Source of the DNA: Phascolarctobacterium faecium DSM 14760 | GTDB lineage: Bacteria; Bacillota; Negativicutes; Acidaminococcales; Acidaminococcaceae | Direction of reading: 5' to 3' | Length of the DNA: 64,000 bases | Assembly: GCF_003269275.1 (NCBI RefSeq) | Contig: NZ_QLTS01000001.1 | Span: 496,001-560,000, forward strand | In this document: one piece after another, positions 14,891 to 56,216 of the stretch | Layout: each line of letters opens with the position of its first letter | Position numbering within the stretch: position 1 is the stretch's first letter | Translations under genes and position numbers: made by a program | Notes under the pieces: generated by a model | What the model saw: the letters and a program-made list of their open reading frames with translations, nothing else | Told to the model about the DNA's origin: nothing | The model's database searches: none

Positions 14891-16543
14891 ATGAACAAGA
14901 AAAAATTTATTCTGCTCGCATTACTGCTGCTCTGCGCCTATTTTTATGAATTATTCGGCGGTATGCCTGCAACTGTCCCATTTGCGCCTCAGCCTGTAAA
15001 AGCCGATACTTCGCTGCTGCTGGCTCCGTTAGACAGCCGCCCTCCCTGCAGCGCTATGGTCAGAAAACTGGGAGCACTGGCTTCTATCAACGTAATTACA
15101 CCGCCGCAAGAACTTCTTGACAATTATAACACACCTGCTGATAAAGAAAAACTGTTTGCCTGGCTGAAAAATGAAATGCCGCAGCATCCAGCCGCAATTT
15201 TATCAGCTGATCTTTTAGTACACGGCAGTCTGCTGGGCTCACGCGTACCTTTAGGAACAATTAACGATGAAGAAAAGTTTTTGACTTTCGTAAACAAACA
15301 GCATGCTCTCAACCCACAAATCGATATGGTGTTTTTTTCCGTCATTCCAAGATTGCTGGTCAGCGATCAGCTTATACCGGACAGCTGGTATCAATGGCAT
15401 CTGATGCGTTATGCAACATTAAAGGATATGGCAGAAACATTCGGCGATCCTTACTTTACCAGGCAGCTGCTGGCGATCGATGCACGCATACCGGATGATA
15501 TTAAAACGAAGTACAGCAGTCTGTATGCCGATAACGACAGTTTTAACAAAAAACTGGTCCAGCTGGCACGCGCAGACGGTCTGACTTTGGCTATAGGGCA
15601 GGACGACGCCCAGCCATTCGGGCTTCCTAATCGTAATGCTAATCATGCGCTGGCATATATGAAACATGCAGATTTAGGTTCCAGCGGGCTTATTACAAGT
15701 GGAGCTGATGAAATATCAGTTTTACTGCTGACCAGATATTATAATAAACTGTATAATTACAAGCCACGCATTTTTGTAGAGTATTCCTCGCCTAAAGTCG
15801 CAGCTAAAATCATGCCCTATATGCCCTGTTCTGTTGACGCAAGCATCCGGGACAAAATAAATTTTATCGGCGGTCAGCTTACAGATGATGCTGCTGTCGC
15901 CGACTTTATTTTATTCGTACACTGCGGCGACGCCGACAATCAGCCTAATAAAGCTATGCTGCAAAAACTTAAACCCCTGCTTATATCAGACCGCCACATT
16001 GCGCTGGTTGATCTTACGGCCAACTATACTGAAAACGAACTTTTAATACCTAAGCTTTTGGAGGCTAAAGTACCGCTCAGCAGGCTGGCAGCTTTTTCAG
16101 GCTGGAATACTTTAAGTAATTCACTGGGAACCGCGCTTAGTCAAGCAACATTATTTACCGGCCAGCTGCACCGATTACCGCAATCAGAACATCCGTCACT
16201 GTATGCCCAAAATCTGAACTTCACAGTTGAACGTTTACTTGATGATTATGCCTATCAGAAATTAATGCATGCACAGTTAACTACATTACTGAAACTGAAA
16301 GGCTATAAGCCAACTGATTTGGGAGACAACAAGTTTTTTGCAGAAACGCTTATTCGTGGCTTTTTACAGCGTCAAAAGATTCAGCTTCTATATGGAGACC
16401 TTGGCCGTACACCTTTTTATCGCAATAACGACAGCAATTATTATTTAACAGGTATCGACATCAATGTAAACCTGCCCTGGGCACGTATTTTCGAAATCAA
16501 TCTTGATACAAACTGCAGTTTTGGGGAAAACCACAGACAGTGA
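14891..16543 (+). CDS. DUF4127 family protein (first copy), exported
   Basis: A 550-residue protein with an N-terminal membrane/signal segment (about 5-20) and no lipobox. The domain start LLAPLDSRPPCS and the segments AAILSADLLVHGSLLGSR, DDAQPFG and FSGWNTLSNSLGTALSQ are shared with a second DUF4127 protein at 46061-47650. The C-terminus PWARIFEINLDTNCSF also matches that paralog (PWNRLFEIDVEL). The family has no assigned function. The conserved Asp/Arg pairs and Gly-rich turns suggest an enzyme, but I cannot name a reaction. It stands alone, followed by about 350 bases with no annotated gene. Confidence 0.75.
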   Translation: MNKKKFILLALLLLCAYFYELFGGMPATVPFAPQPVKADTSLLLAPLDSRPPCSAMVRKLGALASINVITPPQELLDNYNTPADKEKLFAWLKNEMPQHPAAILSADLLVHGSLLGSRVPLGTINDEEKFLTFVNKQHALNPQIDMVFFSVIPRLLVSDQLIPDSWYQWHLMRYATLKDMAETFGDPYFTRQLLAIDARIPDDIKTKYSSLYADNDSFNKKLVQLARADGLTLAIGQDDAQPFGLPNRNANHALAYMKHADLGSSGLITSGADEISVLLLTRYYNKLYNYKPRIFVEYSSPKVAAKIMPYMPCSVDASIRDKINFIGGQLTDDAAVADFILFVHCGDADNQPNKAMLQKLKPLLISDRHIALVDLTANYTENELLIPKLLEAKVPLSRLAAFSGWNTLSNSLGTALSQATLFTGQLHRLPQSEHPSLYAQNLNFTVERLLDDYAYQKLMHAQLTTLLKLKGYKPTDLGDNKFFAETLIRGFLQRQKIQLLYGDLGRTPFYRNNDSNYYLTGIDINVNLPWARIFEINLDTNCSFGENHRQ

Positions 16544-24408: not shown

Positions 24409-25131
24409 TTATAAGCGTTTTTTTAGCAAGTCGGCAGCCGCTGTCAAAGCAATAAGCATAGCCGACGGTCTTGGCGGACAGCCTGGCACAGCTATGTCTA
24501 CCGGCAATACTTTATCCAATGCACCGACAATAGCATAGGTAGACCCATACGTTCCTCCGCTGGCAGCACAGGCACCACAGGCCATTACCAGCTTCGGTTC
24601 TTCCATTGCTTCATAAGTCATTTGCACTGCCTGCGCCAAATTACGTGTTACCACGCCTGTAACCATTATCATATCAGCATGTCGCGGTGAAGCCACAAAA
24701 GCAATACCAAAACGATGCAGATCATACAGCGGATTACTCAAAGCACCCATTTCAAAATCGCAGGCATTACAGCTGCCGGCATCCAAATGCCGTACATGCA
24801 GTGAACGCCCCAGCTTGGCCCTGATCTCTCGTTCTATGGTCATCTGTACATCTGTCAATATCTCCGGCAAAGTATCAATATCAGTATGCAGCAGCGCACC
24901 TGCAGCACACGCTTCTACACATTTACCGCAAAAAAGGCAGCGTTTATAATCCAATACTGGTTTGCCATCACACAGCGCAACAGCACCAGTCGGGCAAACA
25001 GCCGCACATTTTGCACAGCCATTACAGTCAGTTCCACAAGTCAGTTGTCCCCGCATTCTTGGAGCACCGCTGGTCGTTACATCTTCTGTTGTTATCTTAT
25101 TGGCCAAAATCCCCTGTAACAATTTAAGCAT
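24409..25131 (-). CDS. hydrogenase small subunit fused to 2[4Fe-4S] ferredoxin (HyfI/HycG-like)
   Basis: A 240-residue fusion. Residues about 30-80 form a ferredoxin with CxxCxxCxxxCP (C36, C39, C42, C46) and CxxCxxCxxxC (C65, C68, C71, C75). From about 105 on it is a NuoB/HycG-type small subunit with C121, C124, C185/C188 and C218 (PGCPP) for the proximal 4Fe-4S cluster. In E. coli the ferredoxin (HycF/HyfH) is a separate protein; here it is one chain. It passes electrons to the large subunit encoded next to it. It is the last gene of the operon, 12 bases after the large subunit. Confidence 0.88.
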   Translation of the reverse strand: MLKLLQGILANKITTEDVTTSGAPRMRGQLTCGTDCNGCAKCAAVCPTGAVALCDGKPVLDYKRCLFCGKCVEACAAGALLHTDIDTLPEILTDVQMTIEREIRAKLGRSLHVRHLDAGSCNACDFEMGALSNPLYDLHRFGIAFVASPRHADMIMVTGVVTRNLAQAVQMTYEAMEEPKLVMACGACAASGGTYGSTYAIVGALDKVLPVDIAVPGCPPRPSAMLIALTAAADLLKKRL

Positions 25132-25143
25132 TATTGTTCCTCC

Positions 25144-26646
25144 CTAACGATCCAGACAGGCATAGCATAATTCAAAGCTTTTATTGATCAGCGGAAAATC
25201 CGGAATAATATCTCCCTGCACAGCTATGGTAAGCGCCGGCCAGTTAGGATAGGAAGCTGAACGGATAAATAATCTTTCGATACATCCGTCTGCATCCAGC
25301 ATCAGCCAATGCAGATTACTGCCACGTGCTGATTCGCTGATCCCCCAGCTGCCAGTCAGAGTTTTATACGCCAGTTCACCGCAATGCAGCTGCGAATCGT
25401 CTTGCTGCAACAGCTTCAATGCTTTTCTAATCAAAGTGATCGATTCGGCAACCTCACCCATCCGTACCTGCAGCCTGGCATAGACATCGCCGTCGGTTTT
25501 CGTAATTACATTAAAAGGCAATTCGGCATATAAACCATATGGCAGATCCCTGCGGCAATCACAGTCCACACCCGAAGCTCTGGCTCCAACTCCGACCAGC
25601 GCCAGGTCAAGCGCTACATTTTTACTGATAATACCAGTAGTTTTAGCACGATTCAAAAATCCGTCCTGCTCGGCAATGATCTGCACAATATCGTTGTATT
25701 CATTTTCAACTTTAGTTAAAGCAACTGTTAGTTCAGTGCATAAAGACTCAGTTAAATCATATTTTACACCGCCCGGAACTATCAGGCCACGCAGAAAACG
25801 ATTGCCGGCTATCGCCTCATTACAGCGCAGCAGTATTTCCTTCAAGCGGCTGCCCATACTGATAACAGGCGCAAATCCGACTCCGGCACACATATTACCT
25901 GTATCGCCGATGTGATTATAAAGACGTTCCAACTCTGCAGCTATTGTACGGATAAGCCAGGCTCGCCTGGGTACATTCTGACCGGACAGCTTTTCCAGTG
26001 CCTGACAATACGACAAGGTATTGGCCACAGAACAGGCACCGCAAATCCGTTCTACAATCAGCAGTGCTTCCTCTGGAGTTTTACCTTCTACTGCTTTTTC
26101 GATTCCCCGATGAGTAAAAAACAACTTGGCATCTAACTGCAGAATAGCTTCACCGGCCTGGCTGAATCGAAAATGCCCCGGTTCAATGATACCTGCATGA
26201 ATAGGACCGACAGGTACTTCGAACAGCCCATCGCCGTGCGAAACAGCCATTTCATACTTTCGCTCTCCACGCACATCAGCATCAATATCAACACATTTGC
26301 GCAGCGGATGAAAATCTTCAGGATAAGTTTCATGCAAAACCAACGGCCGCAGATCCGGATGATCATCCGGTATAAACCCGAACATATCATGCAGTTCACG
26401 TTCATACCAGGCAGCAGCCGGTAAAACAGGTGTTAATGCTGGATAATGAAGATCACTGCCTGCATCAAATTCAGCCTTTAAGATATCTATATCATGCTTT
26501 TCTTTATTTTCAAACAGACAGTAAACAGCATACCCGCCGCCGAAGCTGGTTTCATCGGCCCCGAACATTGCTGTCAGCGGATGCCTGCCACCGCGTGAAC
26601 AAATATTAGCAGCCCCCCGCAGGCCTTCTGGTTTAACCTTCATCAA
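25144..26646 (-). CDS. group-4 [NiFe]-hydrogenase large subunit (HycE/HyfG-like, NuoC-D fusion)
   Basis: A 500-residue fusion of a NuoC-like N-terminal part (about 1-120, ERELHDMFGF) and a NuoD/HycE-like part. The L1 nickel motif is ERICGACSVAN (C202, C205); the usual CxxH histidine is Asn here. The L2 motif is FELCYACLDR (C494, C497) and the protein ends there. In HycE/HyfG this reads roughly DPCxSCTDR and is followed by a cleavable tail, so this form would need no endopeptidase. All four nickel cysteines are kept, unlike Nuo. Its ATG overlaps the hyfF-like stop by 4 bases. Confidence 0.85.
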   Translation of the reverse strand: MMKVKPEGLRGAANICSRGGRHPLTAMFGADETSFGGGYAVYCLFENKEKHDIDILKAEFDAGSDLHYPALTPVLPAAAWYERELHDMFGFIPDDHPDLRPLVLHETYPEDFHPLRKCVDIDADVRGERKYEMAVSHGDGLFEVPVGPIHAGIIEPGHFRFSQAGEAILQLDAKLFFTHRGIEKAVEGKTPEEALLIVERICGACSVANTLSYCQALEKLSGQNVPRRAWLIRTIAAELERLYNHIGDTGNMCAGVGFAPVISMGSRLKEILLRCNEAIAGNRFLRGLIVPGGVKYDLTESLCTELTVALTKVENEYNDIVQIIAEQDGFLNRAKTTGIISKNVALDLALVGVGARASGVDCDCRRDLPYGLYAELPFNVITKTDGDVYARLQVRMGEVAESITLIRKALKLLQQDDSQLHCGELAYKTLTGSWGISESARGSNLHWLMLDADGCIERLFIRSASYPNWPALTIAVQGDIIPDFPLINKSFELCYACLDR

Positions 26647-28130
26647 AATTGACCGCCTCCTACTATCCGTACCGCCTGAGCCAGCAGTTTTTCCAAATAA
26701 GGTATTTCACCGATTCCGGCACCTATGATGACGCTGCCTAAAAGCAGCGCTGCCAGAAACGGCGTATCCGCATGCTCAAGCAAGTCTCCGACAGGCTTTC
26801 GTTTAGCTTTATCACACAGCATTCGTAAGGCATGGTACAAAATACCGATCAGTATCCCGGCAAGCAGAACAATGATCACTATACCCAACAGATAGTGCCC
26901 GCTTAAAAACAAACTGTATAAAATATAAAATTTACTAAAAAACAAACCCAACGGCGGCATACCTAAAATTCCAATAATACCCAGAAGCCAAAACGTCGCA
27001 GTATGAGGTACATCACCGATCATTCCATGAATACGCATCATATTTTTAGTCTGATATTCCTGCACTATAGTACCAGCTATATAGAACAATACAAATTTGA
27101 TCAGTGCATGATTAAACATATGCACTAAGGTCGCGCCAATAGAAAGCTGGCTGAAAACACCGATACCCGCTATCATCAGACCTATATTTTCCATTGAGGA
27201 ATAAGCCAGCATACGCTTGATGTCGCGCTGCACTACTACAAACGGTACAGCTACAGCAATGGTCAGTGCCGCAAATGCCAGGCACAGCGTACTGATAAAT
27301 TCTACACCTACAGTCGGTATCACAACTACTATGTTACGCAGCAATACATAAATAGCGCAGGTACATAAAGCTCCGGATAAAAGGCCGCTGGTCAGAGACG
27401 GAGCTTCTGAATAAGCATCAGGCAGCCATGTATGCATCGGAGCCATACCGATTTTAGTACCATAACCAATAAAAATAAATAAAAAAGCCAGCTTTGTCAG
27501 CGACGGGTTAAGAAGTTCTGCATGTTCGGTCAGCCACAGCCAGCTCAAAGCCTTTTCAGCCCCAAGTGCCGAAATCTGCGCATAATACAGGATCATTGTT
27601 CCCAAAAGTGCCAGACAAATACCAACAGTACAAACCATCACATATTTCCAGGTCGCTTCCAGAGCACTGCGGGTAAATTTAAATGATACCAGAAAAGCAG
27701 ACACCAACGTTGTCGCCTCGATAGCGACCCACATCAATCCCAGATTTTTCACCATCAGTACCAGAAACATAGTCCAAACAAACATCTGGAACAAAGCATA
27801 ATAACGGCCAATCAAACCAGGCGTACGGCTAAGATAGCCACGGCTGTGCTCGCGCAGCAGATATGACTTGGAAACCCATGCTGCCGCTACATATAAAGCT
27901 GTAATGATCAGTATTACCCAGACATTAAGCGCGTCCAGATAAACATATTCACTGTTAAAAGGCTGTGTTGGCGTAAAACTCTGTGCTAAAAGAATAACTG
28001 CAACGCCTACAGCAGCAGCAGTCAATCGATTAAGCCAGTGCAGCAAACTGCCGCTGCCTAAAACGCCGCTGATAGCTAAAGCCGCACAAACCACCGGCAA
28101 AGCAAAAATTATATAAATCAGCTCCAGCAT
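26643..28130 (-). CDS. hydrogenase membrane subunit, NuoN/MrpD-like (HyfF-like)
   Basis: A 495-residue, strongly hydrophobic antiporter-type subunit with about 13-14 membrane helices. The core LAFLFIFIGYGTKIGMAPMHTWLPDAYSEAPS and the lysine-bearing RDIKRMLAYSSMENIG are typical of proton-translocating NuoL/M/N and HyfF proteins. It should pump H+ or Na+ in step with hydrogenase turnover. It lies between the HyfE-like gene (5-base gap) and the large subunit. Confidence 0.88.
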   Translation of the reverse strand: MLELIYIIFALPVVCAALAISGVLGSGSLLHWLNRLTAAAVGVAVILLAQSFTPTQPFNSEYVYLDALNVWVILIITALYVAAAWVSKSYLLREHSRGYLSRTPGLIGRYYALFQMFVWTMFLVLMVKNLGLMWVAIEATTLVSAFLVSFKFTRSALEATWKYVMVCTVGICLALLGTMILYYAQISALGAEKALSWLWLTEHAELLNPSLTKLAFLFIFIGYGTKIGMAPMHTWLPDAYSEAPSLTSGLLSGALCTCAIYVLLRNIVVVIPTVGVEFISTLCLAFAALTIAVAVPFVVVQRDIKRMLAYSSMENIGLMIAGIGVFSQLSIGATLVHMFNHALIKFVLFYIAGTIVQEYQTKNMMRIHGMIGDVPHTATFWLLGIIGILGMPPLGLFFSKFYILYSLFLSGHYLLGIVIIVLLAGILIGILYHALRMLCDKAKRKPVGDLLEHADTPFLAALLLGSVIIGAGIGEIPYLEKLLAQAVRIVGGGQF

Positions 28131-28134
28131 CCCG

Positions 28135-28767
28135 TCACCCCTTCAGCTTTCTCAACACATTGGTATCTGTCGTCATAAACGACAAACGCAGACGGTTAGT
28201 CAGTATTACCAGTACCATGACAGCAATCAGCACGTCCAAAAAGATACCCATTTCTATAACCAGAGGCAGACCTTCCGTCATCGCCATCCCTAAAAGGTAA
28301 ATGCCATTTTCCATTGTTATCAAGCCTACCATCTGCATAATAGCTCGGCTGCGCATAACGATCAACGTCAGACCAGTCAAAATCATTACGATGGAAAGCG
28401 CCAGAATATCGCGACCTTCCACTCCGGGCAGCATTTTATCAACAATAAGATAACTCAGAACCAGAAAAACTGCACTTGCGGCAGTTGAATAATTAACATT
28501 GATCTCTGAAATGAGCTCACGCTCATCAGCCAGCTTACTGACAAGCCGCAGCATTGCATAAGGCACTAAAAGGACTTTTACGATAATTGTCAGCAGTCCC
28601 GGAGCATAAATATGAATACCCTCGCCATGCGCAATACCGGAAATAAAGCAGGCAAGAGCAATAACAGCCGATTGAACACTAAGGCAGATGATTGCCTGGC
28701 GCAGGTCCATAATACGGGTCTGCAAAAAGACAACGAACAATAAGACGATTACCAAAAAATTCATCAT
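28135..28767 (-). CDS. hydrogenase membrane subunit, HyfE-like
   Basis: A 210-residue protein with about six hydrophobic helices, the length of HyfE. Segments ENGIYLLGMAMTEGLPLVIEMGIFLDVLIAVMVL match the NuoK-like C-terminal part of HyfE. No redox motif is expected or seen. It probably carries part of the proton channel together with the HyfF- and HyfB-like subunits. Confidence 0.8.
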   Translation of the reverse strand: MMNFLVIVLLFVVFLQTRIMDLRQAIICLSVQSAVIALACFISGIAHGEGIHIYAPGLLTIIVKVLLVPYAMLRLVSKLADERELISEINVNYSTAASAVFLVLSYLIVDKMLPGVEGRDILALSIVMILTGLTLIVMRSRAIMQMVGLITMENGIYLLGMAMTEGLPLVIEMGIFLDVLIAVMVLVILTNRLRLSFMTTDTNVLRKLKG

Positions 28768-28775
28768 ACCCCTCC

Positions 28776-29660
28776 TTACTGCGCTACAATTGCCAGCAGC
28801 AGTAAAATACCGGCTGCGGCCAGATATACGCGAACTTTGAACAGACGCATTTTATTCTTCAGAGTTTCCATAACACTTACCGCTGTCGCTGCCAAGAGCA
28901 CTTTCACTGCCAGCGGCAGTGAAAGCGGCAGATACAACAACGAAAACAAGACCAAAAATACTAATGTTTTCAGCATGCTTGCCCAATGGATCACTGCCAG
29001 CAACCGTCCGGAATATTCAAGGAGCATACACTCGTGAATCATTGTCAGTTCCAAATGCGTATCAGGATTATCGACAGGAATTCTTCCATTCTCAGCCAGC
29101 AGCAGGCAAAAGAAAGCAATACATGTCAGCACGCTGGCTACGCTTAAATAAACCGCCTGAAAATCAAGCGCCATTCCCGCTAAAGTTGTGCTGCCACTGC
29201 GCAGCGCATTCACCAGTACAGCCAGCAAAATTACAGGTTCTGCTAAAACAGAAATATAAATTTCACGAGATCCGCCCATGCCGCCAAACGCCGTAGCCGT
29301 ATCCAGAGACGATAAAGTCATAAAAAAGCGCCCCAGCGTTAGAACGCCAATAAAAACAAAGACATCTCCAAAACTGAATTGAGTTCCAAAAAAGTTAGGC
29401 AGCATCGCCGCTGCCACTACTACACTGGCAAAATATACCAGCGGCGCAATAATAAAAACCAGACTGGTATAAGGCGTAAGTATTGTAGGCTTCTGCCACC
29501 ATTTATAAAGATCGAAATATTCCTGGAAAATACTGGAACCGATACGATTCTGCAGCAAGGCTTTCACTTTTTTTATGATACCGGCAACTAAAGGAGCGCT
29601 GCACAAAAGCAGCAACACTTGTGCCAGCATCCAGCCCAAATCATAAATATGCATAGCCAT
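28776..29660 (-). CDS. hydrogenase membrane subunit, NuoH-like (HyfC/HycD-like)
   Basis: A 294-residue membrane protein of the NuoH family, which joins the hydrophilic arm to the membrane arm. Motifs: RIGSSIFQEYFDLYKWWQKP near the N-terminus and DNPDTHLELTMIHECMLLEYSG, with the conserved acidic residues, in the middle. It starts next to the HyfB-like stop (29661), so the two are translated together. Confidence 0.88.
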   Translation of the reverse strand: MAMHIYDLGWMLAQVLLLLCSAPLVAGIIKKVKALLQNRIGSSIFQEYFDLYKWWQKPTILTPYTSLVFIIAPLVYFASVVVAAAMLPNFFGTQFSFGDVFVFIGVLTLGRFFMTLSSLDTATAFGGMGGSREIYISVLAEPVILLAVLVNALRSGSTTLAGMALDFQAVYLSVASVLTCIAFFCLLLAENGRIPVDNPDTHLELTMIHECMLLEYSGRLLAVIHWASMLKTLVFLVLFSLLYLPLSLPLAVKVLLAATAVSVMETLKNKMRLFKVRVYLAAAGILLLLAIVAQ

Positions 29661-31649
29661 TTACATCGCCCCCCAAATCAAAACCAAAAGCATAGCCACC
29701 ATTACATAACTGATATACAGACGTACGCTGCCCTGCTGAATACGACGCAGAAAAGAAGCAGACCAGACCATATAGTGCTGAATCGGTACATATAGCTTTT
29801 CTGTAAACTGATCCGGGATCGATAATTTATATTCCAGCTGCCGCCCAAAATACGGATTACCCTTTTTCAGATAGGTTGCCGTTCGCTTTGGCTTCAGCAA
29901 AAAATCAAAAGCCCGGCGGAGCGGCTTGGAAAAACCAGTAGCTGAATATTGCTGGCGCGCTGTAGGATAAGTACCGCAGTTCCAAGTAACTTCACGATGA
30001 ACAAAGCTTTTATCGCCGCAGGTCATAAGGGCCACAGCCAGTAAAACAACCGACAATACTGTCAATAGCAGTAACGGTGCATAAACTGCATAACTTCCGC
30101 TGCCAAACCACCAAACCTTCTGCATATCTGCAAAACTGCGCCAAAGAGTTTGCTGGTTCTGCACTGCCGTTTGCAGCACAGCAACTACCGGCCCCGGGAC
30201 AATACCAAGCAGCAATACCAATATTGCCGCCAACCCCATTCCCAAACGCATCGACCAATCGCTTTCGTGAGCACGTTCTACGAGCCTGCTTCGATTCCGG
30301 CCCAAAAAAACTACTCCATAAAGACGCACAAAGCAACCAACTGCTAAAGCACTTGCTAAACCGAACAGAACAAAAGCCAGTGCTCCTAAAAGCCGCAGCC
30401 CCTGTCCTTCACTGCTGCCGGCCAAAGTAACAAAACTCTGCAGTGCGAGCCACTCCCCCACAAAACCACCTGTCAGAGGCAGGGCAGACAAGCCCATCGA
30501 ACCTACCAGTGTAAAAACCGCAGTCCATGGCATCAATTTACCCAAGCCACCCATTTTTTCAATATCCTTACTATCGGTAGCATGCATTACAGCCCCTGCC
30601 GACATAAACAACAGTGATTTCATCACCGAGTGGTTCAAGGAATGTACAACAGCGGCCAAAAAACCAATTAATGCATAGTCATGCCGTGGCGTTGTCATAA
30701 GTACCATCCCACAACCAAAAGCTCCGAAAATAATCCCCATATTTTCTACAGATGAATATGCTAAGATCCTTTTGATGTCTTTTTCCATCTGTGCATATAA
30801 AGCACCCAAAACTGCTGATAGCAGACCTACCACCAGCACAAAAGCCCCCCACCAGAATTCTGTCGGGCCAAGAAACTGAAAAACAAAACGTCCGAAACCA
30901 TATAAGGCTATTTTCAGCATAACGCCGCTCATCAGCGCCGAAACATGACTTGGTGCAGCAGGATGCGCATTAGGCAGCCACACATGCAGCGGCAATAACC
31001 CCGCTTTTAATGCAAAACCGGCAAAAGCAGTGATAAACGCCGCATTACGAACATTATCACTCAACACTCCCTGACCGAGCACAGCAAAATCTAAAGACCC
31101 TGCCTGACTGCCTATCATCAAAAAAGCAATCATGATTGCCGCTGTTCCGATATGGGTCATAACCAAATATTGATACGCTGCATTATGTGCAGCTTTTTTT
31201 TCAGCTTCGTGGTTGACCAGCAGAAAGCTTACTACGGCCATCAGCTCCCAAGCCAGTAAAAAACTGAAAACATCAGCAGCCAGTAAAACCAGCACCATAG
31301 AAAGCAAAAATGCATTCCAGAGTCCTCCCAAAAGTCTCAGCCTTTTACCCAGATAGCTTTTCGCATAACCCCAAGCATAAATGCTCGTCACTGTTCCTGC
31401 CAAGCCCGTAATCAATAAAAAAACTGCGCTCCACCGATCAGCATTGAAAGTAAAAAATGCCCAGCTGCCGCTCAGCAGGCTCCCACTTCCCTGCATCAGA
31501 TAAGCCGCAGACTGATACAGCAGAGCTCCGCTGCCAAATACTGCTGCCAAAACCGCACAGTAATGTGCCGCCATCTCCATTTTTTTAGGAAACAGTGCCG
31601 TAGCGGCACCCATACCATACACAGCAAGCGTTATATATATAAGTTCCAT
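29661..31649 (-). CDS. hydrogenase membrane subunit, NuoL-like (HyfB-like)
   Basis: A 662-residue membrane protein, first gene of the operon. The antiporter core is FALKAGLLPLHVWLPNAHPAAPSHVSALMSG, with EKDIKRILAYSSVENMG and a second lysine/histidine-bearing helix HSLNHSVMKSLLFMSAGAV. Length and order fit HyfB. The ATG at 31649 is preferred because GAGG lies 9 bases upstream; an ATG at 31655 leaves only 3 bases. Together with the next five genes it forms a six-subunit complex analogous to Hyf/Hyc, coupling H2 or ferredoxin chemistry to ion pumping. Confidence 0.87.
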   Translation of the reverse strand: MELIYITLAVYGMGAATALFPKKMEMAAHYCAVLAAVFGSGALLYQSAAYLMQGSGSLLSGSWAFFTFNADRWSAVFLLITGLAGTVTSIYAWGYAKSYLGKRLRLLGGLWNAFLLSMVLVLLAADVFSFLLAWELMAVVSFLLVNHEAEKKAAHNAAYQYLVMTHIGTAAIMIAFLMIGSQAGSLDFAVLGQGVLSDNVRNAAFITAFAGFALKAGLLPLHVWLPNAHPAAPSHVSALMSGVMLKIALYGFGRFVFQFLGPTEFWWGAFVLVVGLLSAVLGALYAQMEKDIKRILAYSSVENMGIIFGAFGCGMVLMTTPRHDYALIGFLAAVVHSLNHSVMKSLLFMSAGAVMHATDSKDIEKMGGLGKLMPWTAVFTLVGSMGLSALPLTGGFVGEWLALQSFVTLAGSSEGQGLRLLGALAFVLFGLASALAVGCFVRLYGVVFLGRNRSRLVERAHESDWSMRLGMGLAAILVLLLGIVPGPVVAVLQTAVQNQQTLWRSFADMQKVWWFGSGSYAVYAPLLLLTVLSVVLLAVALMTCGDKSFVHREVTWNCGTYPTARQQYSATGFSKPLRRAFDFLLKPKRTATYLKKGNPYFGRQLEYKLSIPDQFTEKLYVPIQHYMVWSASFLRRIQQGSVRLYISYVMVAMLLVLIWGAM

Positions 31650-31701
31650 TCCCATCTACCTCACATTCAAAACTCAAAAAAGCTCATAAAAAAACGTATA
31701 T

Positions 31702-46060: not shown

Positions 46061-47650
46061 ATGAAGATCTGGAATAATCCATTCAGAAAAATACTGCTGT
46101 TTTCCCTGCTGCTTCTATCTTTTAGTTCGGCTCAGGCAGAAGAAAACAAAAAAGAAACTCTGTTGTTTTTACCTTTGGATAACCGTCCTGTCTGTTCCTC
46201 TTATGTTGCCAAAACAATGGAAGCAGCGGGTTACAAAGTGCTGCTTCCGCCTGATAAATATCTGGCTTCATATAATCGAAACGGCAGTCCTGATGAATTA
46301 TGGAAATGGCTCGTCAGCCGTGCGCCTCAGGCAGACGCTGCCGTCATTTCCACAGACAGTCTGATCTACGGCGGTCTGGTTGCATCACGTACTCATCACG
46401 AACCGCAGGCAGTTTTAGAGCAGCGTCTGCAGCGACTCGAAACACTGCGTGATCAGTTCCCAGTACGGCTTTATGCTTTCTCTACCTTGATGAGAACTCC
46501 GCGCGCCAGTTTTGGCGCTGTTGAGCCTCCATATTATTCGAAAATCGGTCCGGCTATTTTTCGTTATTCCGAGCTTTGTGACTCCGAAGATTTGATTGGA
46601 CTCAGCCTCAAAGATGCTTTAACGAAAAAAACTTTGTCTACCAACCTGCCTAAAGCAGATTTGCAGGACTGGCTGGAACGCCGCCAAAAAAATCTCAATA
46701 TCAACAGCAAGCTGACGGAAATGACCCGCAGCAACCGTTTTCACTTTCTCGCAATCGGCAAGGACGATAATGCTCCGTTATCGCATACCCATATGGAAGC
46801 ACGCAAGCTCACTCAGGAAACCTATGATCTTACGCAGCGAACTTTTCAGATAATCCCCGGTGTCGACCAGCTCGGGCTGCTGCTGCTGACCAGAGCCGGA
46901 AACGAACTGAAGCGTTATCAGCCACGTGTTTACGCCTATTATGCAGATGGCTGGGGACCGCGAACGCTGCCGCAATATTCTGATATGACCTTGGGGCAAT
47001 CAGTGCCACAGCAGATTTTAGCAGTAGACGGACGTACTGCTACCAGTGCCGCTAACGCAGACGTTGTTTTGGCACTAAACACGCCCTTTGACGGCATAAT
47101 GATGGATTCTACCGCTCCTTCCAATCAGTTTTTCTCTTCACCGCAAAACCGTGCCTATATCAAACAGCTCAAGCAGCTTATGGATAACGGCTACCGGGTA
47201 TCTTTGGCCGACGTAGCTTATTCTAACGGAGCTGATAATGGTTTTATGAACGAACTGGCTAAACAAGGGCAGTTGGAACAGCTGACAGCCTATAATGGCT
47301 GGAATACTGCGGACAATACCGTTGGATTCGCCATTTGTCAGGGTATACTGACTCCGCAGATGTCAAAACCGGATGCTGAAAAACTGATGCGTATCAGAGT
47401 TATAGACGACTGGTATTATCAGGCCAATGCCCGACGCAGTGCTACTGCATTTTTGGAAAGCAAAAATCAAAAAAATGCAGTTTACCTTCTCGGCCCTTAT
47501 CAGAAACCAGTTCACGATCTGGCTTTAGGCGTTTGCCGAGATTTATCAGGACGTTATAAATTTACAGAAAAAAGTAATTTTGATATTTCTTTCCCCTGGA
47601 ACAGACTTTTTGAAATTGATGTAGAACTGAAAAAAGATAAAAAGAAATAA
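46061..47650 (+). CDS. DUF4127 family protein (second copy), exported
   Basis: A 529-residue protein with a cleavable signal peptide (1-26, ending SSAQAEE). It shares the family blocks FLPLDNRPVCSSYV, LPPDKYLASYNRNGSPDELWKWL, VISTDSLIYGGLVASR, IGKDDNAPLSHTH, YNGWNTADNTVGFAI and PWNRLFEIDVEL with the protein at 14891-16543. The function of the family is unknown. It is a single gene with TAGGAG before the ATG and a terminator after. Confidence 0.8.
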   Translation: MKIWNNPFRKILLFSLLLLSFSSAQAEENKKETLLFLPLDNRPVCSSYVAKTMEAAGYKVLLPPDKYLASYNRNGSPDELWKWLVSRAPQADAAVISTDSLIYGGLVASRTHHEPQAVLEQRLQRLETLRDQFPVRLYAFSTLMRTPRASFGAVEPPYYSKIGPAIFRYSELCDSEDLIGLSLKDALTKKTLSTNLPKADLQDWLERRQKNLNINSKLTEMTRSNRFHFLAIGKDDNAPLSHTHMEARKLTQETYDLTQRTFQIIPGVDQLGLLLLTRAGNELKRYQPRVYAYYADGWGPRTLPQYSDMTLGQSVPQQILAVDGRTATSAANADVVLALNTPFDGIMMDSTAPSNQFFSSPQNRAYIKQLKQLMDNGYRVSLADVAYSNGADNGFMNELAKQGQLEQLTAYNGWNTADNTVGFAICQGILTPQMSKPDAEKLMRIRVIDDWYYQANARRSATAFLESKNQKNAVYLLGPYQKPVHDLALGVCRDLSGRYKFTEKSNFDISFPWNRLFEIDVELKKDKKK

Positions 47651-48946: not shown

Positions 48947-50884
48947 TTAAAAACTGTAGTTTATACCAATTTGATAGTTACGCCCAGGTTCGGCATACCA
49001 CTCATCAAATCCAAGAAATCCGCCGCTTTCATTGTCCCAATTGGAATAAAACTGATTAAAAATATTATTGACCTTGACATAAAGCCTGGTATTTTTCTGC
49101 AGTTTATAGTTCAATGAAGCATTCCATACCCAGTAATTATTATTGGCAAAACGATTTTCACCACGGCCGTTAGCCTGATCAAAAACTCCGCGCCCCTGCA
49201 GCAGCACACTATACTTATCATATTCGTACATCAAATCAAGCAACAGTTCACCGTGAGGTATCATCGTACTTACAGGGCTTGAGTTTTTACGTTCCGTATC
49301 CACTTTCGTCTGTGTATAAGCCACCAGAGAACGCCACTTTTCTGAAAACCGTTTCGATGCGGAAACAGTAAATCCTGTTGCTTTCTCATGCGCAATATTG
49401 GCATATCGACGAAGATATTTGGGCAAACTTATATCTACTGCAATGACATCAGTTGCATCACGATGAAAAACATTCATTTTTAATGACGAAGACTCATTCG
49501 GTACATAAGTTAATCCCGCTTCATAAACCCTACCTTCTTCTGGCTTCAGCGCCTCGTCACCATAATCAGGAGAAAATATCTGCAGCTGCTTGGGCGGCGC
49601 AAAATATTCTGTATAGGCCAAAGTATATAATACCTTTTCAGAGGGCTGATATTCCAACGACAAAGCAGGAGAAAGCTTGCTCCCTGCATAAGAATTCCAA
49701 TCCTGACGCAGACTGCCGACAGCTTTGACGCTGTCAGCCAGCTGCCAGACATCCTGCAGATAAACAGCTTTACTGATCACAGTTCCGTCACTATATTTTG
49801 CTGCCAGATCCTGATAATCAAGGACCTGATCCTTGTAATATTCCACACCGCCGGTCAAAGTATGTTTGGGGTGCCACTGTTTACTGTAACGGTCAAAAAA
49901 ACCTTCCGTCTGTAAATCAAGCAGCCATGGTCGTTCAACATTTAAACTTCTATCATAGGCGGCATTGCTGCTGCGTCTGTAAATACCCACAATATTATTT
50001 TCTGTATCCGAAAATTTACGCTCATATTCCAGAGTTAGATTATCTTCTGTCTTGCGGGCATCGGTCATAAAAATATTTTTAACTAACTTTGGCGGCTTAG
50101 TTTCATCAGGTTCCGTATTCTTATAATTGAAGATCTTTGATTTATACCTGCCGCTGAAAACGCTGTAGCTTAAAGTCAGATCAGCAGTTTCACCCCAGGC
50201 TTTGGTCAATTTGATACCAGCATTTTCAACATTTTCGTACGAAGGTATATTCTTCCTTGCACTACTGTAATCGCCCATAATACTTTTTCGGGCATAAACC
50301 GACCAGCTCCATTCACCGCTTTTGCCTAAATGTAAAATATTCTCTTGCTCACGTCCATAACTGCCCGTTTCCAGATTGATACTGGTTTTAACACCTTCAA
50401 CAGCTTTTTTTGTAGTTATCCTGATCACACCGCCTTTAGCAGCATTACCGTAAACGCTTCCGGCCGCTGACGGCAAAACCTCTACACTTTCCAGCATTCC
50501 CGCCGGCAGTACACCGAAATCAAAATCATTATAACTGCTGCCGTTCCAGTTAGAACGCACACCGTCAATAATTACCAAATAACGATCAGAACCATTCAGC
50601 AAAATCTTACTATAGGCATTCATACCACCGCTGGCGCCCCTTGCCATCAAAGTAACACCCGGAAGTTGCTGAATCACATCCAAAGCATTATCATAATTGC
50701 CGTTTTCCAGCTTCTTTTCATCAACTTTATAGTAACCTGGTTTACCTGCACTATTGTCATAACGCGCGGCCGTAACTATCATCGGCTCCAAATAAAATTC
50801 CGCTTCACCCGCTGCAGCCGCGGTTTTCATTGAGAAAAGCACCAGGTAAAATATAGCCAAGAAACACAAATATTTTTGCTGCAA
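48947..50884 (-). CDS. TonB-dependent outer-membrane receptor
   Basis: A 645-residue protein with a signal peptide (1-25), a TonB-box-like YLEPMIVTAARYD, the plug domain (IQQLPGVTLMARGASGG to SVEVLPSAAGSVYGNAAKGGVIRI) and a 22-strand-type barrel ending YQIGINYSF with the aromatic C-terminal residue. It takes up scarce nutrients (metals, heme, siderophores, vitamins) using TonB-ExbBD energy. The substrate is unknown. Its presence in a Firmicute gene setting indicates an outer membrane. It lies 56 bases downstream of a hybrid sensor kinase. Confidence 0.92.
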   Translation of the reverse strand: MQQKYLCFLAIFYLVLFSMKTAAAAGEAEFYLEPMIVTAARYDNSAGKPGYYKVDEKKLENGNYDNALDVIQQLPGVTLMARGASGGMNAYSKILLNGSDRYLVIIDGVRSNWNGSSYNDFDFGVLPAGMLESVEVLPSAAGSVYGNAAKGGVIRITTKKAVEGVKTSINLETGSYGREQENILHLGKSGEWSWSVYARKSIMGDYSSARKNIPSYENVENAGIKLTKAWGETADLTLSYSVFSGRYKSKIFNYKNTEPDETKPPKLVKNIFMTDARKTEDNLTLEYERKFSDTENNIVGIYRRSSNAAYDRSLNVERPWLLDLQTEGFFDRYSKQWHPKHTLTGGVEYYKDQVLDYQDLAAKYSDGTVISKAVYLQDVWQLADSVKAVGSLRQDWNSYAGSKLSPALSLEYQPSEKVLYTLAYTEYFAPPKQLQIFSPDYGDEALKPEEGRVYEAGLTYVPNESSSLKMNVFHRDATDVIAVDISLPKYLRRYANIAHEKATGFTVSASKRFSEKWRSLVAYTQTKVDTERKNSSPVSTMIPHGELLLDLMYEYDKYSVLLQGRGVFDQANGRGENRFANNNYWVWNASLNYKLQKNTRLYVKVNNIFNQFYSNWDNESGGFLGFDEWYAEPGRNYQIGINYSF

Positions 50885-50940
50885 AGCAACCTCTCCTTGA
50901 TAAAAGTTTCTTTTGTTATGACTTCAGCAAATACTATCAG

Positions 50941-53706
50941 CTAATGCAGAAACTTTTCAATACTTTTATACAATTGTTCCACATCGAACGGCTTGGGAAT
51001 AAAAGCATTCATTCCCGCAGCCAGCGCTTTCTCACGATCTTCCTGCAGCGTATTGGCGGTCATAGCGATAACTGGTATTTCCTGTGCGTCGTCCCTGCTC
51101 AAAGACCTGATCTCTGCAGCAGCTTCAAGCCCGCCCTTTAGCGGCATCTGCAGATCCATTAAAATCAGGTCATAAGTGCCTGGCAAAGTTTCCTGAAACC
51201 TGTCTACAGCCTGCTGTCCGTTTACAACGCGTTCAACGTGTACCCCCTGCATTTCCAACATCGTTACGGCAATCTCGGCATTAAGATCATTATCTTCTGC
51301 CAACAAAATATTTTTACCCGCTAAATAACTATGTATTCTGACTTCGTTATTATTCTCCAGGATTTCATCAAACTGTTTTTCGTAAACAGGCAGCTTGATA
51401 GTAAAGAAAAATTCAGAACCTTTTTCAACCTCACTGCGTACACTTAAAATACCGCCCATCAATTCTACCAAATTGCGGCTGATAGCCAGCCCCAACCCAG
51501 TTCCCTGCTGATTGCTGCGGCTTTTTCGGAAAACCTGCTCAAACGATCCAAAAATACGTTCCAGATCTGTTTCAGGAATACCAATGCCTGTATCACAAAC
51601 ACTGAAACGCAGCTCAAAAACCCCTTCTTCAGCAGCACTTTCCAGAACCGTCACCGTTATCTCGCCATTGTTTTCTGTAAATTTATGGGCATTGGAGAGC
51701 AAATTAATAAGAACCTGTTTTAAACGCAGCTCATCTCCAACAAAATTTTTATGTGTAAAACAGCATTTAAACTGTAATTTGATTTTCCTCTCTTCCGCCA
51801 TCACCAGAAAAATATTGCTCAGCTGCCGCAGCAGATTATCCATAGAAAAAGGTCTGCTTTCGATCTGGATCTTGCCGCTTTCTATTTTTGACATATCAAG
51901 GATATCATTGACGATCGATAATAAAAATTTAGCAGAAGAATCAATTTTGGAAATATTTTTCTGCGTCACAGGATCCCCTTCACCGGAAAGCCGCATCAGA
52001 TTAGCCAATCCGATGATTGCATTCAAAGGAGTTCTTATTTCATGTGACATCCTGGAAAGGAACTCTGAACGCACCTTGCTGATGTTTTCTACTTTTTTCA
52101 TTTTAAAATAAATGACCTGATTTTTCATTTTAAACCAAAAATACATAAAAACAATCGTTACCACAAGTAAAATAAACCCAATTATGATCAGAGAAAATAT
52201 GACTGGATTAGAATAAACCAAAGCCTTGAAAGACATTTCTTTCTTGCCAGACATCAAGGTATTATTGGATAAAATCTGCGCAGTCTGCTCATTGGACAGG
52301 TTGACCAGACTTTTATTCAAAATAGAATACAGCTGTATATCATTACTGCTGCTGATCCCCAAAGACAAATATATCTCAGGACTCTCTATAACAGGAATGA
52401 TATTAGTATAATAATCACTCATATACAGATCTTCCAAAACAACGACAGGTATTCTGCTATAAGAAGCTTCTCCCGAATCTACTGCATTCAGACATTCTTC
52501 ATATGTATCAAAATGCGCAACGTCTGTATGTTTGATATTACGCGATGCACAGCTGCCGTTTATGACTGCAGCAATATTTTTATCATTTGGGAAAGGTGTA
52601 TACTTATTACGCATGATGATAGAATTAAGCATCATATAATTTTTGGTGATATTTAAACCATCAGGATTAAAGGCGTCATTTTCATTGATATAATAACCAA
52701 GGATATCTGCCTGACCGCTTTTGACCAATTCCAAAGTCTGCCCATAGGAAGCAGCCGTTATATACTCAAACTCCGCTCCGATCTGAGCAGCAATCAATGC
52801 AAAAATTTCAGGAACGATACCTTTAGGTTCACCATCCTTAATATAATAAAAAGGATAATTGTTTTTTACTACAGCTACCTTAAATGGGCCATTTTTATGT
52901 ATAAACGTACTTTCCTGTTCTGAGAATACAGCAGTGTTACTGTAATTAACAGGAAAATATTTTTGAAACAGGGCTTCGCCAAAATTCGGATTGACTGCAT
53001 AAATCTTTTTTATAGCTTCATTCAGCTGCGCACTTGTTTCCGGATCGTCCTTTCTGGCAACGATATAACAAGGTTCAGAATTAAAACGCAATGCGACATT
53101 ATAATCAGCCAGCTTGTTAAAAAGATCGCTTACTAAAAGCAGATCCACTTCACCATTATCCAAAGAACTTTCAAATTCATCAGAAGTACCGTAATATTTG
53201 ATATCGCTTTTTATATCATTGAATTCTAAAACATTATTTAAGCGCTTTATTTTATCAGTAGCCTTGGCAAAAACACCAATCGTTTTCCCTTCCAGACTTT
53301 TGATATCAAATCCCTTGATATTCTGGTCATTTTTGTTATAAATCAGCAAACTGTAGCTATAACCCATCAGATGTTCAGGATAATACAGGTTTTCACCAAA
53401 TCCAGGTGACTTTAACACAGCACCCATAAGATCATATTTATTATGTTCCATATTTTTTATTGACTGGCTAATGGAATCTCCAATAAACTCATATTCCCAA
53501 CCTGTATATTTAGCGATTTCAACTAACCATTCATAGACAACACCGCCACGTGTGCCATCTGCGTATGTCTCACATATACCGCGTGTTTCAGGGAATGCCA
53601 CCTTTAAAACTTTTTTAGCCTGTGTTTCTGCAGCATTTGCAGTCACACAGGCACAAATAGATATTATTATCGCTAACCAAACAAAAGTACTTTTAAGAAG
53701 CTTCAT
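50941..53706 (-). CDS. hybrid histidine kinase with two periplasmic solute-binding domains
   Basis: A 921-residue protein of BvgS/EvgS-like design. A signal segment (1-25) is followed by two SBP_bac_3-type periplasmic domains (about 33-255 and 275-485), one membrane helix (502-525), HisKA with SEFLSRMSHEIRTPLNA (H555), HATPase (NLLSNAHKFTENNG, DTGIGIPE, GTGLGLAI), and a C-terminal receiver (ILLAEDNDLN, LMDLQMP, PKPF). No PAS, HPt or DNA-binding domain is present, so phosphate must pass to a protein encoded elsewhere. The adjacent TonB receptor may be its target or the source of its ligand. Unlike BvgS no PAS is seen. Confidence 0.93.
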   Translation of the reverse strand: MKLLKSTFVWLAIIISICACVTANAAETQAKKVLKVAFPETRGICETYADGTRGGVVYEWLVEIAKYTGWEYEFIGDSISQSIKNMEHNKYDLMGAVLKSPGFGENLYYPEHLMGYSYSLLIYNKNDQNIKGFDIKSLEGKTIGVFAKATDKIKRLNNVLEFNDIKSDIKYYGTSDEFESSLDNGEVDLLLVSDLFNKLADYNVALRFNSEPCYIVARKDDPETSAQLNEAIKKIYAVNPNFGEALFQKYFPVNYSNTAVFSEQESTFIHKNGPFKVAVVKNNYPFYYIKDGEPKGIVPEIFALIAAQIGAEFEYITAASYGQTLELVKSGQADILGYYINENDAFNPDGLNITKNYMMLNSIIMRNKYTPFPNDKNIAAVINGSCASRNIKHTDVAHFDTYEECLNAVDSGEASYSRIPVVVLEDLYMSDYYTNIIPVIESPEIYLSLGISSSNDIQLYSILNKSLVNLSNEQTAQILSNNTLMSGKKEMSFKALVYSNPVIFSLIIIGFILLVVTIVFMYFWFKMKNQVIYFKMKKVENISKVRSEFLSRMSHEIRTPLNAIIGLANLMRLSGEGDPVTQKNISKIDSSAKFLLSIVNDILDMSKIESGKIQIESRPFSMDNLLRQLSNIFLVMAEERKIKLQFKCCFTHKNFVGDELRLKQVLINLLSNAHKFTENNGEITVTVLESAAEEGVFELRFSVCDTGIGIPETDLERIFGSFEQVFRKSRSNQQGTGLGLAISRNLVELMGGILSVRSEVEKGSEFFFTIKLPVYEKQFDEILENNNEVRIHSYLAGKNILLAEDNDLNAEIAVTMLEMQGVHVERVVNGQQAVDRFQETLPGTYDLILMDLQMPLKGGLEAAAEIRSLSRDDAQEIPVIAMTANTLQEDREKALAAGMNAFIPKPFDVEQLYKSIEKFLH

Positions 53707-53842
53707 ATGAAAATTGCTACCTTATCTTTCCTGTCAATCAAGCTTGTTTATTATGTTTTTTAATATTTATATTCATTTTAACAAAATTATATCTTTTGAG
53801 CAATTAAATATAAGTTTTATTATTAATTTTACAATAAAAACA

Positions 53843-53881
53843 AAACACCCTCCATCAAATAATTATTGGTGGAGGGTGTTT
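53843..53881 (-). terminator. terminator after phoR
   Basis: A 12-bp perfect stem (53843-53854 with 53870-53881) just after the phoR stop, with TTTTGTTTTTATT following on the minus strand. Confidence 0.85.
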
Positions 53882-53884
53882 AAA

Positions 53885-55546
53885 TTATTTACGCGGCAAA
53901 AAGATTTTTATAGTAGTCCCTTTGTCCAGTTCACTTTCCAGCTCAATGCGACCTTTATGGAACATCACCCCATGCTTGACTATGGAAAGTCCCAAACCTG
54001 TGCCGCCGGTTTCTTTAAAGTGACTTTTATCAACCCTGTAAAAGCGTTCAAAAACCCGCTCTTTATCAGCACTGCCGATACCGCAGCCGGTATCCTTAAA
54101 TGTCAGTACTGCTTCACCGGGAATTACGGCTACTGTAATCTCAACGCTGCCGTTTTCACGATTATACTTGATCCCGTTGTCAATAAGGTTATAAATAACC
54201 TCGCTCAAAACTGCAGGTACTCCTTCTACCTCAGCTTCACAGCCACTGACGCTTATTGCGACATTTTTTCCGGCAGCCTGTTCCTGCAGACGCTGAACTG
54301 TACCTTCAGCCAGCTTTTTCAATTCGATAATTTCCAGGTTGTTCATATTATTCGCCGACTCGTCTAAACGCGACAGTTTCATAATATTATCGATAAGCAC
54401 AATCAGATGCCCGGCCTCACTGTAGATTTTTTCCAGGAAGCGCTGCTTATCTCCTTCCTGAACTAACCCGTTTTTCATAATCTCAGCATAACCCAAAATC
54501 GACTGCAGCGGTGTTTTCAGTTCATGCGAAACATTTGCAGAAAACTCACGCCGCAGTGTTTCTGCTGCACGCTTTTCAGTAACATCAAAAATCAGCAATA
54601 CGCTGCCTTTACCGCCAACACTGCTGCCGCATAGCTGATAAAAGCGCCCGTCCTTCTGATACAGACTTTCACCGCTGCCGCCCACAGCTACCTTCTGCAG
54701 CAGCTCCTGCACTTCCTGGCCTCGCTCCAAAGTCAGAATATTTTTACCAACTACTTCATGATCCTGCAAACCAAATAATTTGGCGGCACTGTCGTTGATC
54801 GATAAAATATTCTGCCGGTCATTCAAAAGGATCAGACCCTCATTCATACTCTGAGTAATAGCCGCCAGTTCATTCTGCTTCTGCCGCAGCTGCTTTAAGC
54901 CTTCTGAAACCTGCCTCTGCTGCTGGGCGATCCGTGTTAAAAACGGTGCCAGTTCATCATAAGTATCATTTTCCAGTGGATTTTCCAGGTCCACCTGATC
55001 CAGCGGTAAAACCATTTTATCAGTAATCCGCCGTGCCAGAAGCATAGCCACCAAAGCCACCACCAGCACTACCGCGATCATATAGGGAATACTGCCGGCC
55101 ACCGTCGCAAAAACAGAGTCTGTCGTTCTTGCAACACGCAGTATATCACCATTATCCAACCGCAGCGCAAAATAAAAAGTTTTTTCTGACAGAGTATCGC
55201 TCATACGCTCGGCCAAACCAATTCCACTTGCTAACGCTTCCTGTACTTCCTCACGATCTTTATGATTGAGCATTTTTTCGGCTGCCACATGATTGTCATA
55301 GATGACCCTGCCGTCAGGAGCAATCAAAGTAACACGAGTCAGCTTACCGCTTTCCATGGTCAATGCCTGCAGATAGCTTTTCCCGCTCTGTTCCAGACCC
55401 ATTTTTATAAAAGTTGCTTCCTGTCTCAAATCACGCTGCATTGTGGTCATCGACCCCTGGTACATAATAACCGCAATCAGCACGGAAGCAATGATAACAG
55501 CCGCCGTTGACAAAAACAGCAGACCGCTGAAAATTTTATTTCTCAT
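53885..55546 (-). CDS. phoR: phosphate sensor histidine kinase PhoR
   Basis: A 553-residue membrane kinase: TM1 (about 8-28), an extracytoplasmic domain, TM2 (about 152-172), a linker, PAS (ITQSMNEGLILLNDRQNILSI), HisKA (FSANVSHELKTPLQSILGY) and HATPase (NLIDNGIKYN, DTGCGIG, GTGLGLSIVKH). It is the last gene of the pst-pho operon and overlaps phoB by 11 bases. It should phosphorylate PhoB when phosphate is low, with PstSCAB and PhoU acting as the sensor complex. Confidence 0.94.
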   Translation of the reverse strand: MRNKIFSGLLFLSTAAVIIASVLIAVIMYQGSMTTMQRDLRQEATFIKMGLEQSGKSYLQALTMESGKLTRVTLIAPDGRVIYDNHVAAEKMLNHKDREEVQEALASGIGLAERMSDTLSEKTFYFALRLDNGDILRVARTTDSVFATVAGSIPYMIAVVLVVALVAMLLARRITDKMVLPLDQVDLENPLENDTYDELAPFLTRIAQQQRQVSEGLKQLRQKQNELAAITQSMNEGLILLNDRQNILSINDSAAKLFGLQDHEVVGKNILTLERGQEVQELLQKVAVGGSGESLYQKDGRFYQLCGSSVGGKGSVLLIFDVTEKRAAETLRREFSANVSHELKTPLQSILGYAEIMKNGLVQEGDKQRFLEKIYSEAGHLIVLIDNIMKLSRLDESANNMNNLEIIELKKLAEGTVQRLQEQAAGKNVAISVSGCEAEVEGVPAVLSEVIYNLIDNGIKYNRENGSVEITVAVIPGEAVLTFKDTGCGIGSADKERVFERFYRVDKSHFKETGGTGLGLSIVKHGVMFHKGRIELESELDKGTTIKIFLPRK

Positions 55547-56216
55547 AGCCAGCTCCTATACGATAACCGACGCCGCGTACAGTTTCTACCAATGCTCCTG
55601 CTTCGCCCAGTTTCAGCCGCAGCGTACGCACATGAACATCGACAGTACGTGTCTCGCCGGCAAAATCATAACCCCAGATATCAGTTAAAAGCTGTTCGCG
55701 CGTAAAAACCTGTCCCGGCCGCTCTAACAGCTTATGTAAAAGCTCAAATTCCTTAAATGTCAGAACTACCTCCTGACCACCGGCCATCACGCGGTGTTTA
55801 TCGATCTCCATTACCAACTCGCCGGCAGTAAGCCTGCTCTGCTTATCCTCCTGCTTATAACGCCGCAGTACGGCTTTGACCCGCGACACCATTTCCATCA
55901 TGCCGAAAGGTTTGGCTATATAATCATCAGCCCCATTATCAAGACCATGAACTTTGTCGAATTCTGAGCCTTTGGCTGTTGCCATGATCACCGGCACCTG
56001 TGCGGTCCGTTTATCGCTGCGCAGCCGCTTCAGCAGACTAAGGCCATCTTCACCCGGGAGCATGATGTCCAGCAGAATCAGAGTCGGCTTGCCGCATTCC
56101 AGCGCTTTGAACAACTCATCACCGCTGCCTACGCCCAGAGCTTTAAAACCAACTGACTGCAATGTATAAACTTCTAATTCACGAATATTAGGATCGTCCT
56201 CCACGCAAAAGATCAT
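55536..56216 (-). CDS. phoB: phosphate response regulator PhoB/PhoP
   Basis: A 226-residue OmpR-type regulator. Receiver domain with CVEDDPN, phospho-acceptor in LILLDIMLPGEDG and IAKPF; winged-helix DNA-binding domain with LTFKEFELLHKLLERPGQVFTREQLL and TVDVHVRTLRLKLG. The ATG at 56216 has AGGAGG 9 bases upstream and lies inside the 3' end of phoU, so it overlaps phoU by 29 bases. It should bind the repeats upstream of pstS. Confidence 0.94.
   Translation of the reverse strand: MIFCVEDDPNIRELEVYTLQSVGFKALGVGSGDELFKALECGKPTLILLDIMLPGEDGLSLLKRLRSDKRTAQVPVIMATAKGSEFDKVHGLDNGADDYIAKPFGMMEMVSRVKAVLRRYKQEDKQSRLTAGELVMEIDKHRVMAGGQEVVLTFKEFELLHKLLERPGQVFTREQLLTDIWGYDFAGETRTVDVHVRTLRLKLGEAGALVETVRGVGYRIGAGYEK

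Follow-up and report, generated by a model that had tools for sequence, protein, structure and literature searches.

Fe(CN)2CO is assembled on HypCD in all [NiFe]-hydrogenases studied, and six Hyp proteins are required to make the [NiFe] cofactor (PMC12130793, PMC12134894). Several relatives of these enzymes are known that differ at the metal site. MBS, the sulfane sulfur reductase of Pyrococcus, keeps two of the four cysteines, has an open proximal cluster and reduces polysulfide (PMC7684303); the Ehr complexes are defined by the loss of metal ligands (PMC6349859); and the six-gene, group 4f-like cluster of Thermus brevis PS18 has no CxxC motifs and lies in a genome without hyp genes (PMC13019369). 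Here we describe a six-gene operon for a hydrogenase-like membrane complex in Phascolarctobacterium faecium DSM 14760, within a stretch of 64,000 nucleotides (contig NZ_QLTS01000001.1, positions 496,001 to 560,000) that is referred to below as the window. With moderate confidence, we suggest that the complex is fed by ferredoxin, pumps ions and belongs with the relatives of complex I in the formate hydrogenlyase (FHL)/Hyf branch, and that it is not a canonical [NiFe]-hydrogenase; it would have a four-cysteine site formed independently of Hyp and an acceptor other than quinone. What appears to be new is the combination of four retained ligands and absent machinery, across families and phyla; no paper stating it was found in the literature searched, which excluded most subscription journals.

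Among the closest described systems are the Hyf and Hyc complexes of E. coli (group 4a), with which the locus shares the HyfB-, HyfC-, HyfE-, HyfF-, HyfG- and HyfI-type subunits and the NuoC-NuoD fusion of the large subunit. The latter (25144..26646, minus strand; PF00329, PF00346 and PF00374) is a HyfG/HycE-like protein of 500 residues, for which E. coli HycE is the best sequence match in the Protein Data Bank (PDB; 1e-76). The structure prediction proposed in a preliminary description of this DNA, carried out for the large subunit with AlphaFold2 (pLDDT 90, pTM 0.91), gave a HycE-like fold, the nearest being 7z0s_E (E. coli HycE in FHL) with a TM-score of 0.93. The four Ni/Fe ligand positions align with two CxxC motifs, C202 and C205 in the L1 motif ERICGACSVAN (26020..26052, minus strand), where the usual His209 is Asn, and C494 and C497 in the L2 motif FELCYACLDR (25147..25176, minus strand), which is followed directly by the stop. 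The residues of the FHL proton path (PMC9474812) are also retained (E155, H245, R395, E438 and R462). The six genes differ from the E. coli operons, however, in lacking formate dehydrogenase, HycB/HyfA, HyfD and a maturation protease, in the presence of ELC for DPC in L2, in the missing C-terminal extension and in the fusion of the ferredoxin to the small subunit. Formate dehydrogenase and HycB/HyfA were absent from the scanned neighbors as well as from the operon, and the large subunit ends as mature enzymes do, so the locus does not fit an FHL/Hyf enzyme of group 4a.

To find relatives, 84,980 species genomes were scanned with degenerate patterns, and we analyzed the best-scoring 80 of at least 569, picked by two conserved peptides near ELC with ELC itself excluded. 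In the alignment, L2 reads ELCxxC in 81/81 family sequences and DPCxxC in 10/10 hydrogenase rows, which means that the canopy Asp (HycE D529), described as strictly conserved (PMC9474812), becomes Glu. The position of HycE Ser283 is likewise Asn in 81/81 family members (Asn244 here) and Ser in 10/10 hydrogenases, and the L1 His is replaced by Asn in 27/81 members, all of them in the subclade of the window (Acidaminococcaceae/Selenomonadaceae relatives). C205 and C497 are invariant (81/81), whereas C202 and C494 occur in 79/81 and are both replaced by Ser in the two remaining rows. These two large subunits (L065:8001-9488 and L068:4394-5827) read SGVC and ELSYAC, with the bridging cysteines kept and both terminal-ligand cysteines changed, a two-cysteine step inside the family. 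Like its clade as a whole, the large subunit stops exactly at the mature C-terminus, here an Arg, but this end proves nothing alone, because Ech and group 4c, which are true hydrogenases, likewise have no C-terminal extension (PMC12134894), nor do the Ech copies of the host order. In a large-subunit tree a long branch of its own (support 100) unites the family, with HycE/HyfG as sister and Ech as outgroup.

HypD was not found in the home genome, which is 100% complete, and HypF gave only TsaC/TsaD-type cross matches below the cut-off there, while HypA, HypB, HypC and HypE were not searched for. All 19 carriers of the complex in the host order lack HypD except G032 (4% contamination), the lone mixed case, which also carries an Ech-type fragment; in the control, HypD was found in 15/17 genomes of the order with a DPC-type Ech, and the two exceptions are 75% and 73% complete. 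In a scan of 381 genomes of the class, HypD was present in 0/41 genomes where the family protein is the sole hydrogenase-like large subunit, as judged from PF00374 scores together with a search for copies of the Ech type, which a very divergent hydrogenase could escape, and in 74/75 where another [NiFe] large subunit accompanies it (Fisher p 1e-30; the miss is a 58%-complete metagenome-assembled genome, MAG). Two species of one genus (G169 and G170) differ in HypD exactly with the presence of another [NiFe]-hydrogenase. A sample of 50 named genomes from several phyla, which were reached through their loci and carry no completeness values, and which partly overlaps the class sample and is thus not fully independent of it, gave 0/9 for family-only genomes and 39/41 for those with another hydrogenase. 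Across eight independent pairs in the large-subunit tree that differ in the other hydrogenase, HypD follows it in seven and never goes the opposite way (p 0.016). We rejected contamination or incompleteness as an explanation for the missing hypD, since the gene is absent from isolates (Anaerovibrio lipolyticus DSM 3074, A. slackiae, Anaerospora hongkongensis DSM 15969 and Anoxybacillus sp. J5B) and from 97-100%-complete MAGs, although HypD was detected in 282/381 genomes by the same search. In family f33 (G381-G397), an orphan HypD (E about 1e-130) occurs without any PF00374 [NiFe] large subunit.

Given this pattern, and because every [NiFe]-hydrogenase studied has its Fe(CN)2CO assembled on HypCD, the most plausible reading is that the family does without that cofactor, and to judge from its genes and residues the complex very probably lacks NiFe(CN)2CO. 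The preliminary description had taken the locus for a group 4 [NiFe]-hydrogenase and had made this depend on hyp genes somewhere in the genome. Its homology to group 4 complexes was confirmed, but neither hypD nor hypF, the two genes searched for, was found, and the clade stands apart with its change from DPC to ELC, which speaks against a [NiFe]-hydrogenase. The description of the complex as possibly Ech-like is not supported either, the large subunit belonging to a clade separate from both Ech and HycE/HyfG. Ech (group 4e) resembles the complex in being ferredoxin-fed, with few subunits and no C-terminal extension, but it differs in its clade, in a large subunit of ~355 residues without a NuoC domain, in its DPC motif and in the presence of hypD in the same genomes. 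MBS is comparable as a hydrogenase-derived ion pump without a NiFe site, whereas the window complex keeps all four cysteines and a hydrogenase-type CxxC motif in its small subunit. The T. brevis PS18 cluster is similar in its six 4f-like genes and hyp-less genome, but the CxxC motifs lost there are kept here.

The 80 relatives span Negativicutes, Desulfosporosinus, Anoxybacillus, Brocadiaceae, Acidobacteria, Myxococcota, Chloroflexi and others. Jettenia ecosi, whose six-gene complex has been termed group 4f (PMC6828613), and several Desulfosporosinus fall inside the family clade, and the HydDB reference for group 4f (Ehf) is EhfE of Desulfosporosinus orientis (WP_014183752.1; PMC7811984). Because the clade holds organisms that are named 4f in papers, themselves or through relatives, we infer that the family corresponds to HydDB group 4f/Ehf, a match judged by the organisms that the clade contains. 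Both are six-gene clusters from the same organisms (PMC7811984, PMC6828613, PMC7248197); however, group 4f is filed as an H2-evolving hydrogenase, whereas the occurrence of the family is independent of the cofactor machinery. Since the four-cysteine complex occurs in HypD-less bacteria across many phyla, the label "group 4f [NiFe]-hydrogenase" is probably wrong for the family. Rumen and environmental surveys count group 4f genes as H2-cycling hydrogenases (PMC6776011, PMC9562222, PMC13383528), and if the family lacks the [NiFe] cofactor, these counts are wrong. If our interpretation is true, a widespread ferredoxin-linked ion pump has been overlooked, and the family, with four cysteines kept and the cofactor gone, may be an intermediate between hydrogenases and the quinone-reducing complex I.

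In the mechanism that we propose, the fused 2x[4Fe-4S] ferredoxin domain would take up the electrons and hand them on to the small subunit's proximal cluster, and from there they would reach the large-subunit pocket at the position of the NiFe site, where the four conserved cysteines may hold a site built without Hyp (a simple metal, an Fe-S center or a dithiol). The final acceptor would be a small one, other than quinone and probably other than protons; the MBS paralogue makes sulfur species or disulfides our first guess, with protons second. The redox step would drive H+ or Na+ translocation via HyfC, HyfF and HyfB. HyfB and HyfF keep the antiporter residues, namely the equivalents of the Glu of transmembrane helix 5 (TM5), the Lys of TM7 and Lys336. 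The preliminary description had suggested an energy-conserving complex using ferredoxin, and the fused 2x[4Fe-4S] module and the two antiporter-like subunits support it; on these features, the complex is likely to be ferredoxin-fed and ion-pumping. Rnf, recognized by RnfD, is present in the home genome and also in some other carriers, and we therefore rejected the idea that the complex and Rnf are mutually exclusive. Three genera (g9, g14 and g18) carry the complex without RnfD, which fits the role of a ferredoxin-oxidizing ion pump. Conserved neighbors were considered as a clue to the acceptor and rejected, as nothing general was found. A directly adjacent ArsR-type regulator occurs in one deep subset (Anoxybacillus, Propionispira and Massilibacillus), and genes resembling those for aldehyde ferredoxin oxidoreductase and MoeA adjoin the operon in four Desulfosporosinus loci (L075, L091, L112 and L116), neither arrangement occurring in the clade of the window. 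The ArsR-type proteins, directly after or near the operon in L081, L082, L084, L097, L105 and L107, have no conserved Cys.

Some observations weigh against our interpretation. The four cysteines, the FHL proton path and the hydrogenase-type proximal cluster are all kept, and such conservation would be surprising in a complex stripped of all metal and proton chemistry. Anaerospora and one Desulfosporosinus MAG carry Ser at both terminal-ligand positions; these relatives, together with the Thermus group 4f complex without CxxC, indicate that the cysteines are not essential in every branch. The absence of Hyp genes, for which HypD and HypF were searched, is indirect evidence. The same conservation, the HycE fold and the fact that close relatives are called group 4f hydrogenases by HydDB-style classification (PMC6828613, PMC9888536, PMC7248197) would suit a true H2-evolving, ferredoxin-dependent group 4 [NiFe]-hydrogenase whose NiFe(CN)2CO is matured by unrecognized or very divergent Hyp proteins. 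We regard this as improbable, because the well-conserved HypD is detected with other [NiFe]-hydrogenases yet in 0/41 and 0/9 family-only genomes, and DPC is lost family-wide, even in genomes with Hyp. A further alternative, which we consider unlikely, is a hydrogenase that needs no Hyp at all, in which the four cysteines bind Ni and/or Fe directly, without CN or CO, and H2 is formed from ferredoxin. Ni-substituted rubredoxin, which has a Ni(Cys)4 site, evolves H2, the four cysteines are present in 79/81 members while other cysteines drift, the proton path is intact, and the host-order carriers have no UbiA-family gene. To our knowledge, however, there is no natural precedent. The complex also persists in relatives without the terminal cysteines or without any CxxC (PMC13019369). 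That such a natural enzyme, with a Hyp-free site of four cysteines and Ni and/or Fe but no CN/CO, driven by ferredoxin and coupled to an ion pump, exists in many phyla under the name 4f is a shade less likely again.

A ferredoxin:quinone oxidoreductase, that is, a short complex I, would agree with the membership of the complex I superfamily and with the occurrence of the family in Thermus, Anoxybacillus and Acidobacteria, which are expected to have quinones. Against it, no UbiA-family quinone prenyltransferase was found in the home genome or among the 19 host-order carriers. In the order, UbiA-family matches were restricted to 3/63 genomes (one above the cut-off), none of them a carrier, and quinone is therefore unlikely as an acceptor in the host. 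The positions of the quinone His and Tyr of complex I are Ile/Glu and Gly in the large subunit (PDB-search alignment), and NuoA is not among the six genes. We consider this explanation decidedly improbable, and for the home genome nearly excluded. The missing cofactor machinery might also point to an inactive, decaying remnant, but this is scarcely credible, as the operon and key residues have been kept in many families and in several phyla, and the six proteins of the D. hafniense group 4f complex occur in the proteome and vary with growth condition, with a lower abundance on H2 than on lactate (PMC9888536). The ferredoxin-fed ion pump with a Hyp-independent four-cysteine site is the explanation that we favor.

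The operon comprises six adjoining open reading frames (ORFs) on the minus strand (24409-31655), in the order B-C-E-F-G-(Fd-I), with domains of the types announced in the preliminary description. The same order is conserved across relatives, an agreement well outside what chance would give. The outer start lies at 31655, not 31649. The HyfB-like antiporter subunit (29661..31655; 664 residues; PF00361, NF005086) has the conserved Glu and Lys, and it is followed by the HyfC/HycD/NuoH-like membrane anchor (28776..29660; PF00146), with most of the E-channel acidic residues present, by the HyfE-like membrane subunit (28135..28767; PRK11492 "hydrogenase 4 membrane subunit", and NF008556 below its curated cut-off) and by the HyfF-like antiporter subunit (26643..28130; PF00361), with the ion-channel Glu and Lys retained. 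For the large subunit, the ATG at 26643 is a more probable start than the TTG at 26646. The last ORF (24409..25131; 240 residues) carries Fer4_7 and then PF01058, which bears out the in-frame, HyfH-HyfI-like fusion of ferredoxin and hydrogenase-type small subunit. Its ferredoxin module (residues ~34-80, 24892..25032; Fer4_7/Fer4_9) has two 4Fe-4S motifs with eight cysteines, and the small-subunit module with the proximal cluster (residues ~121-231, 24439..24771; GSCNAC, GAC and GCPP) has the CxxC of hydrogenases, not the CC of complex I. The fusion was rejected as a novelty of the window genome, being the majority state (52/73 relatives with an identifiable small subunit, by a rule on length and Cys count). 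By this rule the other 21/73 do not count as fused, nine with a long N-terminal extension but only 4-5 Cys and twelve short, and in some of them (Anoxybacillus) a separate ferredoxin gene adjoins the operon.

Four loci (L080, L088, L090 and L093) contain a second HyfB...G-like set in tandem; the second large subunit of L088 ends in NLSY, its L2 motif apparently altered or clipped by the contig end. A near copy (67%) of the operon lies on a contig labeled Acholeplasmataceae (Mycoplasmatota; L044), probably a mislabeled Negativicutes MAG. In agreement with the preliminary description, no regulator, formate dehydrogenase or hyp gene was found among the window proteins scanned, and a near-identity plasmid search returned short hyfB matches only. 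The operon is flanked by genes for a GNAT acetyltransferase and diaminopropionate ammonia-lyase downstream and by amidohydrolase and phe-tRNA synthetase genes upstream. Elsewhere in the window are two DUF4127 proteins (14891-16543 and 46061-47650) and, at 48947-56234, a TonB-dependent receptor next to a sensor kinase that contains a solute-binding domain, along with a further two-component pair.

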